NCBI GenBank assembly: GCA_007135935.1
Contig: SLIA01000322.1
Coordinates: forward strand, 1 to 35,404
Direction of reading: 5' to 3'
Source: Wenzhouxiangella sp.
GTDB taxonomy: Bacteria > Pseudomonadota > Gammaproteobacteria > Xanthomonadales > Wenzhouxiangellaceae
DNA: 35,404 nucleotides
Under the pieces are notes generated by a model. That model worked only from the letters and a program-made list of their open reading frames with translations, had not been told where the DNA came from and ran no database searches. Positions 2 to 9,854 of the stretch are shown here, one piece after another; positions within the stretch are counted from its first letter, which is position 1; each line of letters starts with the position of its first letter. The position numbers were made by a program, and so were the translations under genes.

Positions 2-3000
2 ACTGACATCAAATCGATTCTCATCATTGGCGCCGGGCCGATTGTCATCGGTCAGGCCTGCGAGTTCGACTACTCCGGCGTGCAGGCGGTCAAGGCGCTC
101 AGGGAGGAGGGCTACAAGGTCATCCTGGTCAACTCCAATCCCGCCACCATCATGACCGACCCGGAGATCGCCGATGTGGTCTACATCGAACCGATTCGCT
201 GGGACGTGGTGCGCGACATCATCGAGAAGGAACGCCCCGACGCGCTGCTGCCGACCATGGGCGGGCAGACTGCTCTGAACTGCGCGCTGGACCTGGATCG
301 CGAGGGTGTACTCGAGGAGTTCGGCGTCGAGATGATCGGCGCGTCCAAGCAGGCCATCGACATGGCCGAGGACCGCGAGGAATTTCGCGAGGCGATGCGC
401 GACATCGGCCTGGAATCGCCCGAGGCGGAAGTGGCGCACTCGCTTGACGAAGCCATCGCAATCCAGAAGCGCATCGGGTTTCCGATCATCATACGGCCGT
501 CGTTCACCATGGGCGGGTCCGGCGGCGGGATCGCCTACAACCGCGAGGAATTCGTCGAGATCGTCGAGCACGGGCTCGACTTGTCGCCGACCAACGAAGT
601 GCTGCTCGACGAATCGCTGCTGGGCTGGAAGGAATTCGAGCTGGAGGTGGTGCGCGACAAGGCCGACAACTGCATCATCATCTGCTCGATCGAGAATTTC
701 GACCCCATGGGCGTGCATACCGGCGATTCGGTCACGGTTGCACCCGCGCAGACGTTGACCGACAAGGAATACCAGGTACTGCGTGACGCCGCCATTGCCG
801 TGCTGCGCAAGATCGGCGTCGATACCGGCGGCTCCAACGTGCAGTTTGCCGTCAACCCGGAAAACGGCCGGGTCGTGGTCATCGAGATGAACCCGCGCGT
901 GTCGCGCTCCTCGGCGCTGGCTTCCAAGGCCACCGGCTTTCCCATTGCCAAGGTGGCGGCCAAACTGGCGGTGGGTTACACCCTCGACGAGCTCGATAAC
1001 GAGATCACCGGGGGCGCGACGCCGGCATCGTTCGAGCCCACGATCGACTATGTCGTCACCAAGATTCCGCGTTTTGCCTTCGAGAAGTTTCCGGCCGCCA
1101 ACGACCGCCTGACCACGCAGATGAAGTCGGTGGGCGAAGCCATGGCTTTCGGGCGCACTTTCCAGGAATCGCTGCAGAAAGCCCTGAGGAGCCTGGAGAC
1201 GGGATTGACCGGCCTCGATCCGGTCGAGTTCGAGGCCGAGGACGATGCGCCTACCCTGATCCGGCGCGAGCTGCGCGAAGCCGGCGCCGATCGCATGCTC
1301 TACGTGGCCGAGGCTTTCCGGCGTGGCATGGAGTTCGAGGAAGTCCATCGACTGACACAGATCGATCCCTGGTTTCTCGACCAGGTGCAGGAGCTGGTGG
1401 AAGTCGAGCACGCCATTCACGAGGATGGTATCGCCGCATTGACGGCAGAGCGCCTGCTGGAGCTGAAACGCTACGGCTTTGCCGATGCCCGCATTGCCGA
1501 GCTGGCCGGTGTCAGCGAGAAATCGATCCGCAAGCTGCGCAACAGCCACGATATCCGTCCGGCCTTTCGACGGGTGGACACCTGTGCCGCCGAGTTTGCC
1601 ACCAGCACTGCCTACATGTACTCGACCTGGGGCGAGCAGTGCGAGGCGGCGGCCACCGGCAAGCGCAAGATCATGGTGCTCGGCGGCGGGCCGAACCGGA
1701 TCGGGCAGGGGATCGAGTTCGACTACTGCTGCGTGCATGCGGCCATGGCCATGCGCGAACTCGGCTTCGAGACCATCATGGTCAACTGCAACCCGGAAAC
1801 GGTCTCGACCGACTACGACACCTCCGATCGCCTCTACTTCGAGCCGCTGACGCTGGAGAACGTGCTGTCCATCGTCGAGGTCGAGCAGCCGGAGGGCATC
1901 ATCATCCAGTTCGGCGGCCAGACGCCGTTGAAACTGGCGCGCGAGCTGGAGGCGGCCGGTGCCCCGATCATCGGTACCACGCCCGACTGCATCGATCTGG
2001 CCGAAGACCGCGAGCGGTTCCAGCGCCTGCTCAATGAGTTGGGGCTCAAGCAGCCGCCAAACCGCACCGCCCGCGATCCCGACGAGGCGCTGGTGCTGGC
2101 GCGCGAGATCGGCTATCCGCTGGTCGTGCGCCCCTCCTATGTGCTGGGCGGTCGCGCCATGGACATCGTCTACGGCGAGGACGAACTCAACCGCTACATG
2201 CGCGAGGCGGTCAAGGTGTCCAACGACTCACCGGTGTTGCTTGACCATTTCCTCGATCATGCCATCGAGGTGGATGTCGATGCGGTCTGCGATGGCGAGC
2301 GCGTCATCATCGGCGGCGTCATGGAACACATCGAGGAGGCCGGGGTGCACTCCGGGGATTCGTCGTGCAGCCTGCCGCCGTTTTCCCTTGAAGATGACTG
2401 CATTGAGGAGATCAAGCACCAGACCCGGCAGATGGCGCTGGGCCTGAACGTGGTCGGCCTGATGAACGTGCAGTTCGCCGTGCGCGAGGGCGAGATTTTC
2501 GTCATCGAGGTCAACCCCAGGGCATCGCGCACCGTGCCCTTTGTTTCCAAGGCCACCGGTGTACCGCTGGCCCAGGTCGCCGCCGGTTGCATGGTGGGGC
2601 GAAGCCTTGAAGATCAGGGGGTTACGGAAGATCTTTCATCCCCGTTCTATTCGATCAAGGAGCCCGTCTACCCGTTCATCAAGTTCCCCGGCGTCGATCC
2701 GATTCTGGGGCCGGAAATGCGCTCGACCGGCGAAGCCATGGGTGTGGGCCGCTCCTTCGGCTCGGCGGTCGCCCGCGCCCAGCAGGGTGTGAACATCAAC
2801 ATCAAGCATTCCGGGCGAGTCTTCCTGAGCGTACGCGATGCCGACAAGGAGCGCTTGCTGCCGGTGGCACGAGAGCTGGTCGAGCGCGGGTTCTCGCTGG
2901 TCGCCACCCAGGGAACGTGGAAGACCCTGGTTGAAAACGGCATCGAGTGCGACTACGTCAACAAGGTGATCCAGGGGCGTCCCCATATCGTCGACCTGAT

Positions 3001-6989: not shown

Positions 6990-8088
6990 ATGGAACAGAC
7001 TTCGCTGAAGAACCTGCTGGACGACCTGGAGCGCCGTGTGCGGGCGCTGAGGGGGTATCTTTGACTACGATGGCAAGGTAGAACGACTCGAAGAGGTCAC
7101 CCGGGAGCTCGAAAACCCGGATGTCTGGAACGACCCCGACCACGCCCAGGCGCTGGGCAAGGAACGCTCGGATCTCGATCGTTCGGTCAGTGCGCAGAAG
7201 GCGGTGATCGAGGGCGTCGGCGATGCCGCCGAATTGCTGGAACTGGCCCTGGCCGAGGAAGACGAGGAGACGCTGGCCAGTGTCGGTGCCGATCTCGAAT
7301 CCCTGGAAAAGCAGGTCGACGAGCTGGAATTCCAGCGCATGTTTTCCGGCGAAATGGATGGTCGACCCTGTTTTATCGACATCCAGGCCGGTTCCGGCGG
7401 CACCGAGGCCCAGGACTGGGCCGAAATGCTGCTGCGCATGTACCTGCGCTGGGCAGAGCGTCGTGGCTGGAAAACGGAACTGATCGAAGTTTCGGAAGGT
7501 GATGTGGCCGGGATCAAGAGTGCCACGGTACGCGTGGAAGGCGATCATGCCTTTGGCTGGTGTCGAACCGAGACCGGCGTGCATCGACTCGTGCGAAAGT
7601 CGCCGTTCGATTCCGGCAACCGCCGGCATACCTCGTTTGCCAGCGTGTTCGTGTCGCCGGAAATCGACGACAGCATCGAGATCGAGGTCGATCCCTCCGA
7701 TTTGCGCATCGACGTCTATCGGGCCTCGGGTGCCGGCGGCCAGCACGTCAACCGGACCGAGTCGGCCGTTCGCATCACGCATGAACCGACCGGCATCGTG
7801 GTGCAGTGCCAGACCGATCGTTCGCAGCACAAGAACAAGGACCGGGCGATGAAGCAGCTGCGCGCCAAGCTCTACGAGTTCGAGTTGCAGAAGCAGCAGG
7901 AGAAGGCACAGGCGGCCGAGGACGAGAAAGCCGATATCGGCTGGGGCAGTCAGATCCGCAACTACGTGCTCGACCAGTCACGCATCAAGGACCTGCGCAC
8001 CGGCGTGGAGCGCTCAGACACTCAGAAAGTGCTCGACGGCGATCTCGACGAATTCGCCGCCGCGCAGCTGCAGGCCGGCCTGGAGTAG
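6990..8088 (+). CDS. prfB: Peptide chain release factor 2 (programmed +1 frameshift)
   Basis: RF2 recognises UGA and UAA stop codons and triggers peptide release. The gene is in two frames: codons 1-24 at 6990-7061 end in RGYL, then an in-frame TGA at 7062-7064, and reading resumes one base later at 7063 ([13 protein letters not shown]). The joined product is 365 residues, the same as E. coli RF2. The anticodon-mimic SPF is at 204-206 and the catalytic GGQ at 249-251, inside [13 protein letters not shown]. In-frame ATGs at 6981 and 6990 are both possible; 6990 gives the usual length. Synthesis is autoregulated: low RF2 lets the ribosome shift at the TGA. The gene lies upstream of lysS, as in many gammaproteobacteria. 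Confidence 0.97.
7050..7065 (+). promoter_or_regulatory. prfB +1 frameshift signal
   Basis: AGG GGG TAT CTT TGA C: a Shine-Dalgarno-like AGGGGG three bases upstream of the slippery CTT codon, followed by TGA and a C that weakens termination. This is the canonical RF2 recoding site; peptidyl-tRNA on CTT slips to TTT and decoding continues at GAC. Confidence 0.96.
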
Positions 8089-8120
8089 TGTGGTACGGGT
8101 TTCGGCCTCAAAGTTTTGAA

Positions 8121-8251
8121 CACGAAGGACACGAAGGAGCGCACGAAGGACACGAAGAAAGGAAAGTCGGATGGAACAACGAACAGGGGAATGCAAAAGA
8201 GCCTGGAGTTTTAACTTCGTGTGCTTCGTGCCATTCTTCGTGCACTTCGTG
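8121..8251. repeat. Paired-arm heptamer inverted repeat between prfB and lysS
   Basis: The left arm (8121-8157) has four copies of CACGAAG starting at 8121, 8130, 8142 and 8151, spaced by 2, 5 and 2 bases. The right arm (8215-8251) has four copies of the reverse complement CTTCGTG starting at 8215, 8224, 8236 and 8245, with the same 2, 5, 2 spacing. All four heptamers can therefore pair in one long hairpin with small internal mismatches and a 57-base loop (8158-8214). The element fills most of the 236-base prfB-lysS gap and would be transcribed if the two genes share an mRNA. It has no gene inside and no transposase. Confidence 0.9.
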
Positions 8252-8324
8252 TTATCCGCTTTCTCGAACCCATGTGTGGCGTCCTCCATGCGCTCTAATC
8301 GCACAAGGCCAGCAGGAATTGGAT

Positions 8325-9854
8325 ATGACCAGAAAAGAAACGGATCAGGCGCCAGAGGTGGACGAGAACCGTCTGATTGCCGAGCGGCGCGAGAAGCTCG
8401 GGAAGCTGCGTGAGCATGGCGAAGCGTTCCCCAATGATTTCCGGGTGACGGTCGAGGCCGCGAAGCTGCTCGATCGCTTCGAGGATGCCGAGCGCTGGGA
8501 TCAGGATGCACTCGAAGGTCTGGAGGAGTCCTTCAGCCTGGCCGGGCGCATCATGAGCCGTCGCATCATGGGCAAGGCCAGTTTCGTGCACATCCAGGAC
8601 GGCTCCGGGGCGCGCATCCAGCTTTACCTGCGGCGCGACGATCTGCCCGAAGGGGTCTACCAGTCCTTCAAACAGTGGGACATCGGTGACATTGTCGGCG
8701 TGACCGGCAGCCTGATGCGCACGCGCACCGGCGAGCTCAGCGTGCAGGCCAGCGACCTCAGACTTCTGACCAAGTCGCTGCGCCCGCTGCCGGAGAAATG
8801 GCACGGCCTGACCGACCAGGAAACCCGCTACCGCCAGCGCTACGTCGACCTGATCGTCAACCCCGAAGTGCGCGAGACCTTCGTGCGCCGCACACTCATC
8901 ATTCGGGCCATTCGTCGTTACTTCGACAGCCGCGAGTTTCTCGAGGTCGAGACGCCGATGATGCACCACATTCCCGGCGGCGCGACGGCCAGACCGTTCG
9001 TGACCCACCACAATGCGCTCGATCTCGATCTCTACCTGCGCGTCGCGCCCGAGCTGCATCTCAAGCGACTGCTGGTCGGCGGGCTGGAAAAGGTCTACGA
9101 GATCAATCGCAACTTCCGCAACGAGGGTGTGTCCACGCGGCACAATCCCGAGTTCACCATGCTCGAGTACTACTGGGCGCACGCCGACTACAACGACCTG
9201 ATCGCACTGACCCAGGATCTGCTCAACAGCGTGGTCAGCGAACTGCCGGACATGCGCGACGGCAAGGTCGACTACCAGGGCGAGACCATCGACTTCAGCG
9301 GCGAGTATGCGCGTGTGCGCGTCGCCGACGCCGTGGTCGAACACTACGTCGATATCGAGCCAGCCGATATCAAGAACGCCGACAAGCTGCGCCAGGTCTG
9401 CCGCGCCAACGACATTCATGTCGAGGACGGCTGGGGCTGGGGCCGCCTGCTGATGGAGCTGTTCGAGGAGCGCATCGAACACACGCTGATCCAGCCGACC
9501 TTCGTGGTCGATTACCCCATCGAGGTCTCTCCGCTGTCGCGCCGCAACGATGAGGATCCGGATTTTGCCGACCGTTTCGAACTGATCGTGGCCGGCCGCG
9601 AGATTGCCAACGGGTTCTCCGAGCTCAACGACCCCGAAGACCAGGCCGAACGATTCCTGGCCCAGGTCCAGGCCCGTGATGCCGGTGACGCCGAGGCCAT
9701 GCATTTCGACCGCGACTACATCCGTGCGCTGGAATACGGCATGCCGCCGGCGGCCGGGGAGGGCATCGGCATCGATCGACTGGTAATGCTGCTGACCGAC
9801 TCGCCCTCGATTCGTGACGTATTGTTGTTCCCTTATCTGCGTCCGGAGGAGTGA
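8325..9854 (+). CDS. lysS: Lysyl-tRNA synthetase (class II)
   Basis: Charges tRNA-Lys with lysine using ATP. 509 residues, close to the E. coli LysS length. The N-terminal OB-fold anticodon-binding domain ([20 protein letters not shown]) is followed by the class II core: motif 1 region [18 protein letters not shown], motif 2 with [20 protein letters not shown], and motif 3 [20 protein letters not shown] near the C terminus. The ATG at 8325 has AGGA seven bases upstream. The frame stays open back through the heptamer repeat to 7806, but that extension overlaps prfB and has no counterpart in the family. Confidence 0.97.

Follow-up and report, generated by a model that had tools for sequence, protein, structure and literature searches.

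Mirrored heptamer arrays between prfB and lysS of Wenzhouxiangella and their association with GxxExxY nuclease-family genes

In the REP/REPIN-RAYT (TnpAREP) systems, or REPtrons, mirrored non-autonomous repeats with a diverse middle are accompanied by a cognate gene, and the sections of the literature available to us describe groups of repeats and proteins that have co-evolved, as well as REP/REPIN repeats in genomes that lack the gene (PMC8049555, PMC8266576). The intervening sequences of 23S rRNA carry a small S23/four-helix-bundle ORF between terminal inverted repeats and are called selfish in the excerpt available (PMC4990558). Dispersed arrays of heptamers are described, again in partial texts, from Xanthomonas and Nostoc (GGGAATC; PMC4692102), Beggiatoaceae (TAACTGA; PMC4679880) and Geobacter metallireducens (GGACCGG and others; PMC2700814).

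The CACGAAG elements described here resemble REPINs, as far as the available accounts of the latter go, in having two mirrored, hairpin-capable repeats, a diverse middle, many dispersed copies and an associated gene, in this case of the GxxExxY family. The copy from which the analysis started lies in a 35,404-nucleotide stretch of Wenzhouxiangella sp., termed the window, to which all coordinates refer unless a contig is named.

The element and its copies

The element occupies the gap between the 3' part of prfB, encoding release factor 2 (7204-8088, forward strand; TIGR00020, 460.9 bits; stop codon at 8086-8088), and lysS (8325-9854, forward strand; TIGR00499, 672.8 bits), whose start is placed at 8325 by the extent of the family match. 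Inverted-repeat and word searches delimit a left arm on the forward strand (8119-8157), consisting of AA and four CACGAAG heptamers that start at 8121, 8130, 8142 and 8151, and a right arm on the reverse strand (8215-8253), in which four CTTCGTG heptamers starting at 8215, 8224, 8236 and 8245 are followed by TT. Unit starts are 9-12-9 nt apart in both arms, leaving mirrored spacers of 2-5-2 nt. The outer ends read GAA on the left and TTA on the right. The 57-nt loop (8158-8214) is without a gene of its own and is crossed by one opposite-strand ORF and one forward-strand ORF; compared with the orthologous copy in the congener G009, it differs at 9 of 56 aligned bases and has the same orientation. 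The unit count, spacing and loop length given in the initial annotation were thus confirmed at every position.

Lone heptamers number 12 in the window against 5.6 expected, and 2 of 100 shuffles contain as many; single heptamers are not very rare, and it is their mirrored arrangement that sets the element apart. De novo searches of the window, including one relaxed to 2+2 units and loops up to 300, revealed no second such element, and Rfam gave no match in the window at the gathering threshold. Within 8000-8400, neither a promoter scan nor a search for terminator-like sites (a short-loop GC stem followed by a T run) returned a candidate, and a BLAST search of plasmids with the element gave no match.

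The picture changes at the scale of the 3.2-Mb draft genome (G000). The sequence CACGAAGNNCACGAAG (CACGAAG-N2-CACGAAG) occurs there 63 times on 21 contigs, 31 forward and 32 reverse, while its backward control does not occur at all. The genome has about twenty gene-less copies, the window element among them. Their common anatomy is TAA, 2-4 CACGAAG, loop, 2-4 CTTCGTG and TTA, with TAA-CACGAAG at 15 of 21 left ends and CTTCGTG-TTA at 12 of 20 right ends. Heptamers are constant among the copies; spacers and loops vary, the middle spacer usually measuring 4 or 5 nt. The symmetrical 2-5-2 spacing that was first remarked upon holds for both arms of the window copy, but other copies and relatives show 2-4-2 or 2-2 spacing, or unit steps of 8 or 10 nt, and the 2-5-2 pattern is a subfamily trait. 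Exceptions to the common anatomy are C107, which is truncated at the end of its contig; C51, with one exact unit on its right side; C217, which has an additional lone left array; and C269, with 3+3 units at 2-2 spacing.

The C269 copy (L049:1131-1404) is nested within arms built of CACGGAG/CACAGAG words. The nesting was considered as a dated insertion and rejected as such; in G019 and G009 the entire site looks empty, and the comparison does not isolate an insertion of the inner element alone.

Spacers of 25 full arms match at 4.42 of 9 positions, compared with 4.58 predicted from column composition (the best pairs reach 8 of 9), so that nothing in them shows recent copying. The 5-nt spacer is biased in composition, with A as its second base in 24 of the 25 arms and G as its last base in 22. 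Based on crude ORF calls, the genes around 20 elements (18 usable) are arranged in tandem in 10 cases, convergently in 5 and divergently in 3.

Constraint, pairing and loop orientation

Nine orthologous pairs of CACGAAG elements were compared, eight with G009 and one with G019. Heptamers changed at 8 of 462 positions (1.7%), spacers at 31 of 143 (22%) and flanks at 131 of 1036 (13%); heptamer substitution is about 12 times below that of spacers. Loops changed at 119 of 295 positions, a figure inflated by inversions and by one doubtful alignment. A functionless simple repeat made by slippage is hardly credible in view of this difference in substitution, and the units are non-contiguous, their spacers differ and the arms are mirrored; what speaks for slippage is that contiguous 7-nt arrays of a sister kind, described below, do exist.

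The two arms form a 39-nt inverted repeat (8119-8157 / 8215-8253) that is 85% complementary, and the predicted RNA fold of 8100-8270 is stable (-67.3 kcal/mol against a shuffle mean of -45.45, z -5.29; none of 200 dinucleotide shuffles is as low). Such a fold could serve in the prfB-lysS transcript as an mRNA stabilizer, an RNase III site or an attenuator, and RNase III is described, in the excerpt available, as cutting Coxiella 23S intervening sequences with inverted repeats (PMC4990558). Several observations make an RNA hairpin distinctly improbable as the explanation of the element. Among 20 elements with 4+4 units, a set that includes orthologous pairs, 14 unit pairs carry a change, and none of the 14 is changed on both sides; 6 are still fully paired if G-U is counted. 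Mirrored spacers are paired at 57 of 154 positions (0.37), compared with 0.464 when arms are redealt, and 1991 of 2000 shuffles are at least as high. The result for G000 alone (ten elements) is 29 of 80 positions, with 1986 of 2000 shuffles at least as high. In addition, pairing does not need one fixed word in all copies, and the absence of a terminator-like site around the element counts against a role of this kind. Conserved heptamers together with poorly pairing spacers argue that the heptamer is read as sequence, and against selection for a perfect stem.

The initial annotation had every unit pairing with its mirror image in one hairpin and suggested a dispersed, possibly mobile or RNA-processing element. 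The inverted repeat itself stands, but its mirrored spacers pair less often than shuffled ones, and the suggested role in RNA processing finds no support in the spacer and heptamer comparisons. The finding of copies elsewhere in the genome disposes of the possibility that the element is unique, while the proposed check for compensatory change in the heptamers found none; taken together, these results weaken a hairpin-only reading and strengthen that of a dispersed element. In the spacers at 8128-8150 and 8222-8244 of the window, and in those of other copies, perfect palindromes seem to be avoided.

A sequence that is read could be a double-stranded DNA site. The arrays might bind a host nucleoid or regulatory protein, with the GxxExxY gene a lodger in some sites, a reading that we consider unlikely. 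It fits the conservation of heptamers but not spacers and the lack of a pairing signal; the 9-12-9 steps average 10.5 bp, which would bring the heptamers to the same side of the double helix, and heptamer/octamer arrays of Geobacter metallireducens are read in this way in the available part of their description (PMC2700814). On the other hand, steps of 8 and 10 nt argue that helix phasing is not general, and binding by a host protein does not predict the inversion of loops, to which we now turn.

Loop orientation was compared in 8 of the nine pairs, C52 being excluded for an unreliable loop alignment. Loops align directly in 4 pairs (C72, which is the window element, C24, C275 and C206) and better when inverted in 3: C116 and C208, between G000 and G009, and C94, between G000 and G019. 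Each of the three inverted alignments is matched by none of 1000 shuffles; the C208 and C94 inversions are clear, and that of C116 is based on 18 nt. The loop of C106 aligns in neither orientation. At C94 the inner 2-nt spacers moved with the loop, which places the exchange point within the arms. Host recombination between short inverted repeats could explain loop inversion.

GxxExxY genes, array words and site occupancy

One CACGAAG element of G000, on contig C104, has a gene in its loop. The GxxExxY match (451-801, reverse strand) lies between arrays at 400-436 and 823-859, and the longest ATG frame (445-867) begins just beyond the arm and reads through it; judging from this frame, the protein may begin with residues encoded by the arm. 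The protein scores 143.8 bits against TIGR04256 (cut-off 35) and 141.3 bits against PF13366 (cut-off 22), making it a full family member. GxxExxY/PF13366 belongs to the PD-(D/E)XK nuclease family, and the C104 protein keeps the motif residues. E44, D84, E94 and K96 show no variation in alignments of 15 and of 31 GxxExxY proteins, drawn from related loci of the genome search, with L195 and L207 excluded for a stop inside the frame.

A structure was predicted for the homolog L200 from Chloroflexi, which also lies beside a CACGAAG array and was modeled in place of the G000 protein (pLDDT 96.7). Its top Foldseek matches are PD-(D/E)XK nucleases (a lambda-type exonuclease, SSO0001 and lambda exonuclease), with a best E of 0.014 and none at or below 0.001. 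By VIA-align, the Cas4 protein SSO0001 is the only chain at Z of at least 8 (Z 9.4; 96 residues, 3.3 A); Hjc comes second at Z 7.0, and a Z under 8 may reflect a common arrangement only. The model thus predicts for L200 a PD-(D/E)XK nuclease fold with D...ExK. A sequence search of the PDB with the GxxExxY profile gave 0 hits.

GxxExxY is the only gene found inside a CACGAAG element of G000, and this counts against a conventional MITE, bounded by heptamer arrays and mobilized by a DDE or serine transposase. Short inverted ends, dispersed copies and site turnover are what such a MITE would show, but the spacers of the copies are unrelated and the arms are arrays of 7-mers, not a unique terminal repeat; we regard it as very improbable.

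The association of gene and array extends far beyond Wenzhouxiangella. Arrays, defined as at least 3 units of CRCNRRD at steps of 8-12, lie no more than 180 nt from 103 of 127 GxxExxY genes from many phyla; the other 24 are without an array by this criterion. The pattern was written after examples had been seen, and controls scored with the identical pattern yielded 2 arrays in 229 windows about 700-900 nt away and 3 in 254 reversed flanks. Array direction is as in the window in 136 of 177 cases (upstream, 64 forward and 23 reverse; downstream, 72 reverse and 18 forward). A search free of any given word found inverted 7-mers, at least 3+3, in 55 of 78 loci, compared with 23 in the same orientation, 9 in reversed and 15 in complement controls; the 78 are those long enough for use among 80 loci, themselves the best 80 of 582 relatives. 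These best 80 of 582 represent Bacteroidota, Verrucomicrobiota, Cyanobacteriota, Chloroflexota, Planctomycetota, Acidobacteriota, Thermodesulfobacteriota, Pseudomonadota and others. When 20 GxxExxY loci from this genus and order were inspected by eye, most adjoined mirrored heptamers of their own word, and a few, such as L114, did not clearly do so. The suggestion in the initial annotation that similar stretches are scattered through environmental bacteria is thereby borne out. Arrays that bound a host protein would not be predicted to lie beside most genes of one nuclease-like family.

At L404 a GxxExxY gene apparently lies between two short CACAGAA/CACGGAA elements with identical loops, the upstream one partly in view, an arrangement reminiscent of RAYT genes between REPINs. 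In G002, G015, G018 and G019 (L105, L109, L110 and L112), GxxExxY genes of the CGCAGAT type lie in what is seemingly one gap, apparently carA-carB as guessed from the flanks.

The word of the array tracks the phylogeny of the protein. When its last three letters are mapped on a maximum-likelihood tree of 100 proteins, 20 changes are needed, compared with a mean of 44.0 for shuffled labels (0 of 200 as low); the tree comprises 100 of the 103 array-bearing genes, the others having a stop inside or fewer than 95 residues, and it has few columns and many unresolved forks, while near-copies help any clustering. A fully supported split, at which the midpoint root falls, has all 24 words ending in T/A (GAT, GAA, AAT, AAA; steps 9-10) on one side and all 76 ending in G (mostly steps 8-9) on the other; these two main clades stem from two differently seeded searches, with some near-copies in each. 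One clade (support 85) unites the CACGAAG proteins of G000 with those of four genomes from another family, and one more CACGAAG protein, L200, lies elsewhere. Inheritance of gene and arms together, without recognition, could yield the correlation or part of it; arms that are recognizable over phylum-level distances, however, make it unlikely that they go unread. A host DNA-binding protein would not predict that the word follows the protein tree.

Orthologous sites differ widely in content. In the prfB-lysS gap, G009 has the orthologous element; by eye, G022, G011 and G003 have CACAGAT elements, and G008, G005, G001, G015 and G019 CGCAGAT/CGCGGAT elements. Contiguous repeats of GGGACCA and GGTTTAC type occupy the gap in G017 and G018 (L084 and L082). 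The gap is just 10-40 nt in G012, G016, G023, G006 and G020, and holds no array in G013 (103 nt), G014 (54 nt) and G004 (89 nt). Of the 51 loci outside G009 that are orthologous to 14 further CACGAAG sites, 15 had a strict element, compared with 1 in the complement control and 6 in 1100 random 450-nt windows. This excess is overstated, since coding DNA is present among the random windows and related species do not provide independent loci at a given site. A looser criterion gave 17 elements at these loci, none with CACGAAG. The count covers 58 locus entries (7 from G009 and 51 others) at 14 of 15 sites, and the site comparison covers C104 and C206 in part and the other sites except C116. Several orthologous sites are empty, for example those of C206 and C264 in G018. 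Strict elements of any word reach densities of 0 to 25 per Mb in stretches sampled from four congeners and 57 in G000, where most of the contigs chosen were already known to carry CACGAAG elements; controls gave 1 (complement) and 0 (reverse) in 1.19 Mb.

The suggestion that the element is dispersed and possibly mobile is upheld as regards dispersal, by the spread of copies over contigs, the variable occupancy of orthologous sites and the one copy with a GxxExxY gene; movement itself was not seen. No sign of transposition, excision or target duplication came to light at the sites compared with congeners, which offered no close empty/filled pair with clean ends. G019, a single contig that is 99% complete, keeps its CACGAAG heptamers intact (0 of 56 changed), and its sole GxxExxY match lies within CGCAGAT arrays. 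G009 (80% complete) and G027 likewise have CACGAAG arms, and a cognate, CACGAAG-flanked GxxExxY gene was not found in either. In a REP/REPIN-RAYT-like system, genomes with the gene would be expected to have more repeats. Copies outside gene flanks were counted in 24 genomes of another family, on the basis of 53 gene entries that include fragments. The 7 genomes with the cognate locus have 2, 2, 4, 6, 8, 8 and 20 copies; of the 17 without it, eight have none and the others 1, 2, 2, 4, 11, 11, 14, 27 and 34 (one-sided p = 0.07, an excess for the first group that falls short of significance), and the two copy-richest genomes lack the cognate gene. Counts of CACAGAT in these genomes likewise bear no clear relation when inspected by eye. 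A host DNA-binding role is a serious rival on account of the copies in G019, G009 and G027, where no cognate gene was detected, this p value and the lack of a clean-ended insertion; a copy conserved in G019 with no detected cognate gene is what a host-bound site would show.

A proposed element class and known systems

We conclude that the window element is probably a gene-less, non-autonomous, REPIN-like copy that serves as substrate for a GxxExxY nuclease specific to its word. Its arms would be the recognition and hairpin-forming ends, the flipped loops traces of cutting and rejoining, and the copies would spread in trans, rarely. The gene within a loop, the association of genes and arrays, the covariation of word and protein, the constraint on heptamers, the inverted loops and the turnover of sites are observed; recognition, cutting and mobility are inferred. 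The GxxExxY protein would recognize its own heptamer word as DNA and may act on a hairpin or cruciform made by both arms, as suggested by a predicted fold that is nearest to Cas4 and also matches lambda-type exonucleases and Holliday-junction resolvases. Cutting and rejoining at the arms would flip the loop and might occasionally spread gene-less copies in trans to intergenic sites.

A broader reading, which we put at somewhat less than even, is that a bacteria-wide class of elements exists in which a PD-(D/E)XK nuclease of about 120 residues (GxxExxY) co-evolves with the mirrored array of its heptamer word, gene-less copies being spread and flipped in trans and the word changing along with the evolving protein. 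A sister class would consist of four-helix-bundle (S23/IVP/Avd-like) proteins with contiguous 7-nt arrays, of which 23S intervening sequences would be a special case. At genes of the four-helix-bundle family TIGR02436/23S_rRNA_IVP (L128-L157, from the genus and order), mirrored contiguous 7-nt arrays of at least 3+3 units were observed in 16 of 28 cases (controls: complement 6, reversed 0, same orientation 1), with very diverse words, and 23S intervening sequences may represent a special case of arrayed elements of this kind.

Were these readings true, the dispersed heptamer arrays of several genomes and a nuclease-like family of many phyla that has no known role would belong to one system, with a protein-DNA word code that has many natural variants and is directly testable. 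Such a system might also explain some spurious repeat-encoded peptides, such as the HEGHEG and FVSFVV types mentioned in the initial annotation, and would add to REPINs a second system of that kind, built on an unrelated enzyme.

The pairing of a GxxExxY gene with mirrored heptamer arrays is apparently a widespread and undescribed kind of genome-resident element. GxxExxY/PDDEXK_3 (TIGR04256, PF13366) is a known family named by motif and superfamily only, and the open PMC literature, in which one paper names the family in passing, yielded no link of GxxExxY or PF13366 to repeats. Like CACGAAG, the arrays described in PMC4692102, PMC4679880 and PMC2700814 are dispersed and largely intergenic, and those of Xanthomonas and Geobacter are often inverted pairs; in the parts of these papers available, they are discussed as G-quadruplex, translational or regulator-binding sequences, without a link to GxxExxY or four-helix-bundle genes. 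The C104 copy resembles the 23S intervening sequences in having a small ORF between inverted repeats, and differs from them in its nuclease-family gene, its spaced units and the location of such elements between protein genes, prfB and lysS for the window copy.

The closest parallel, that with REP and REPIN, has clear limits. The gene linked to CACGAAG encodes a PF13366/TIGR04256 PD-(D/E)XK protein, in contrast to the HUH (Y1) enzyme of RAYT. As REPs are described in the available text, each arm here is an array of 2-4 spaced heptamers where a REP has one short palindrome, and the mirrored spacers here do not pair. In REP sequences a GTAG tag adjoins the palindrome. The CACGAAG consensus, with TAA at the left end and TTA at the right, has no such tag. 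By analogy, the logic of the system is REP/RAYT-like, yet it is not a REP/RAYT system, since both the enzyme and the repeats are unrelated.
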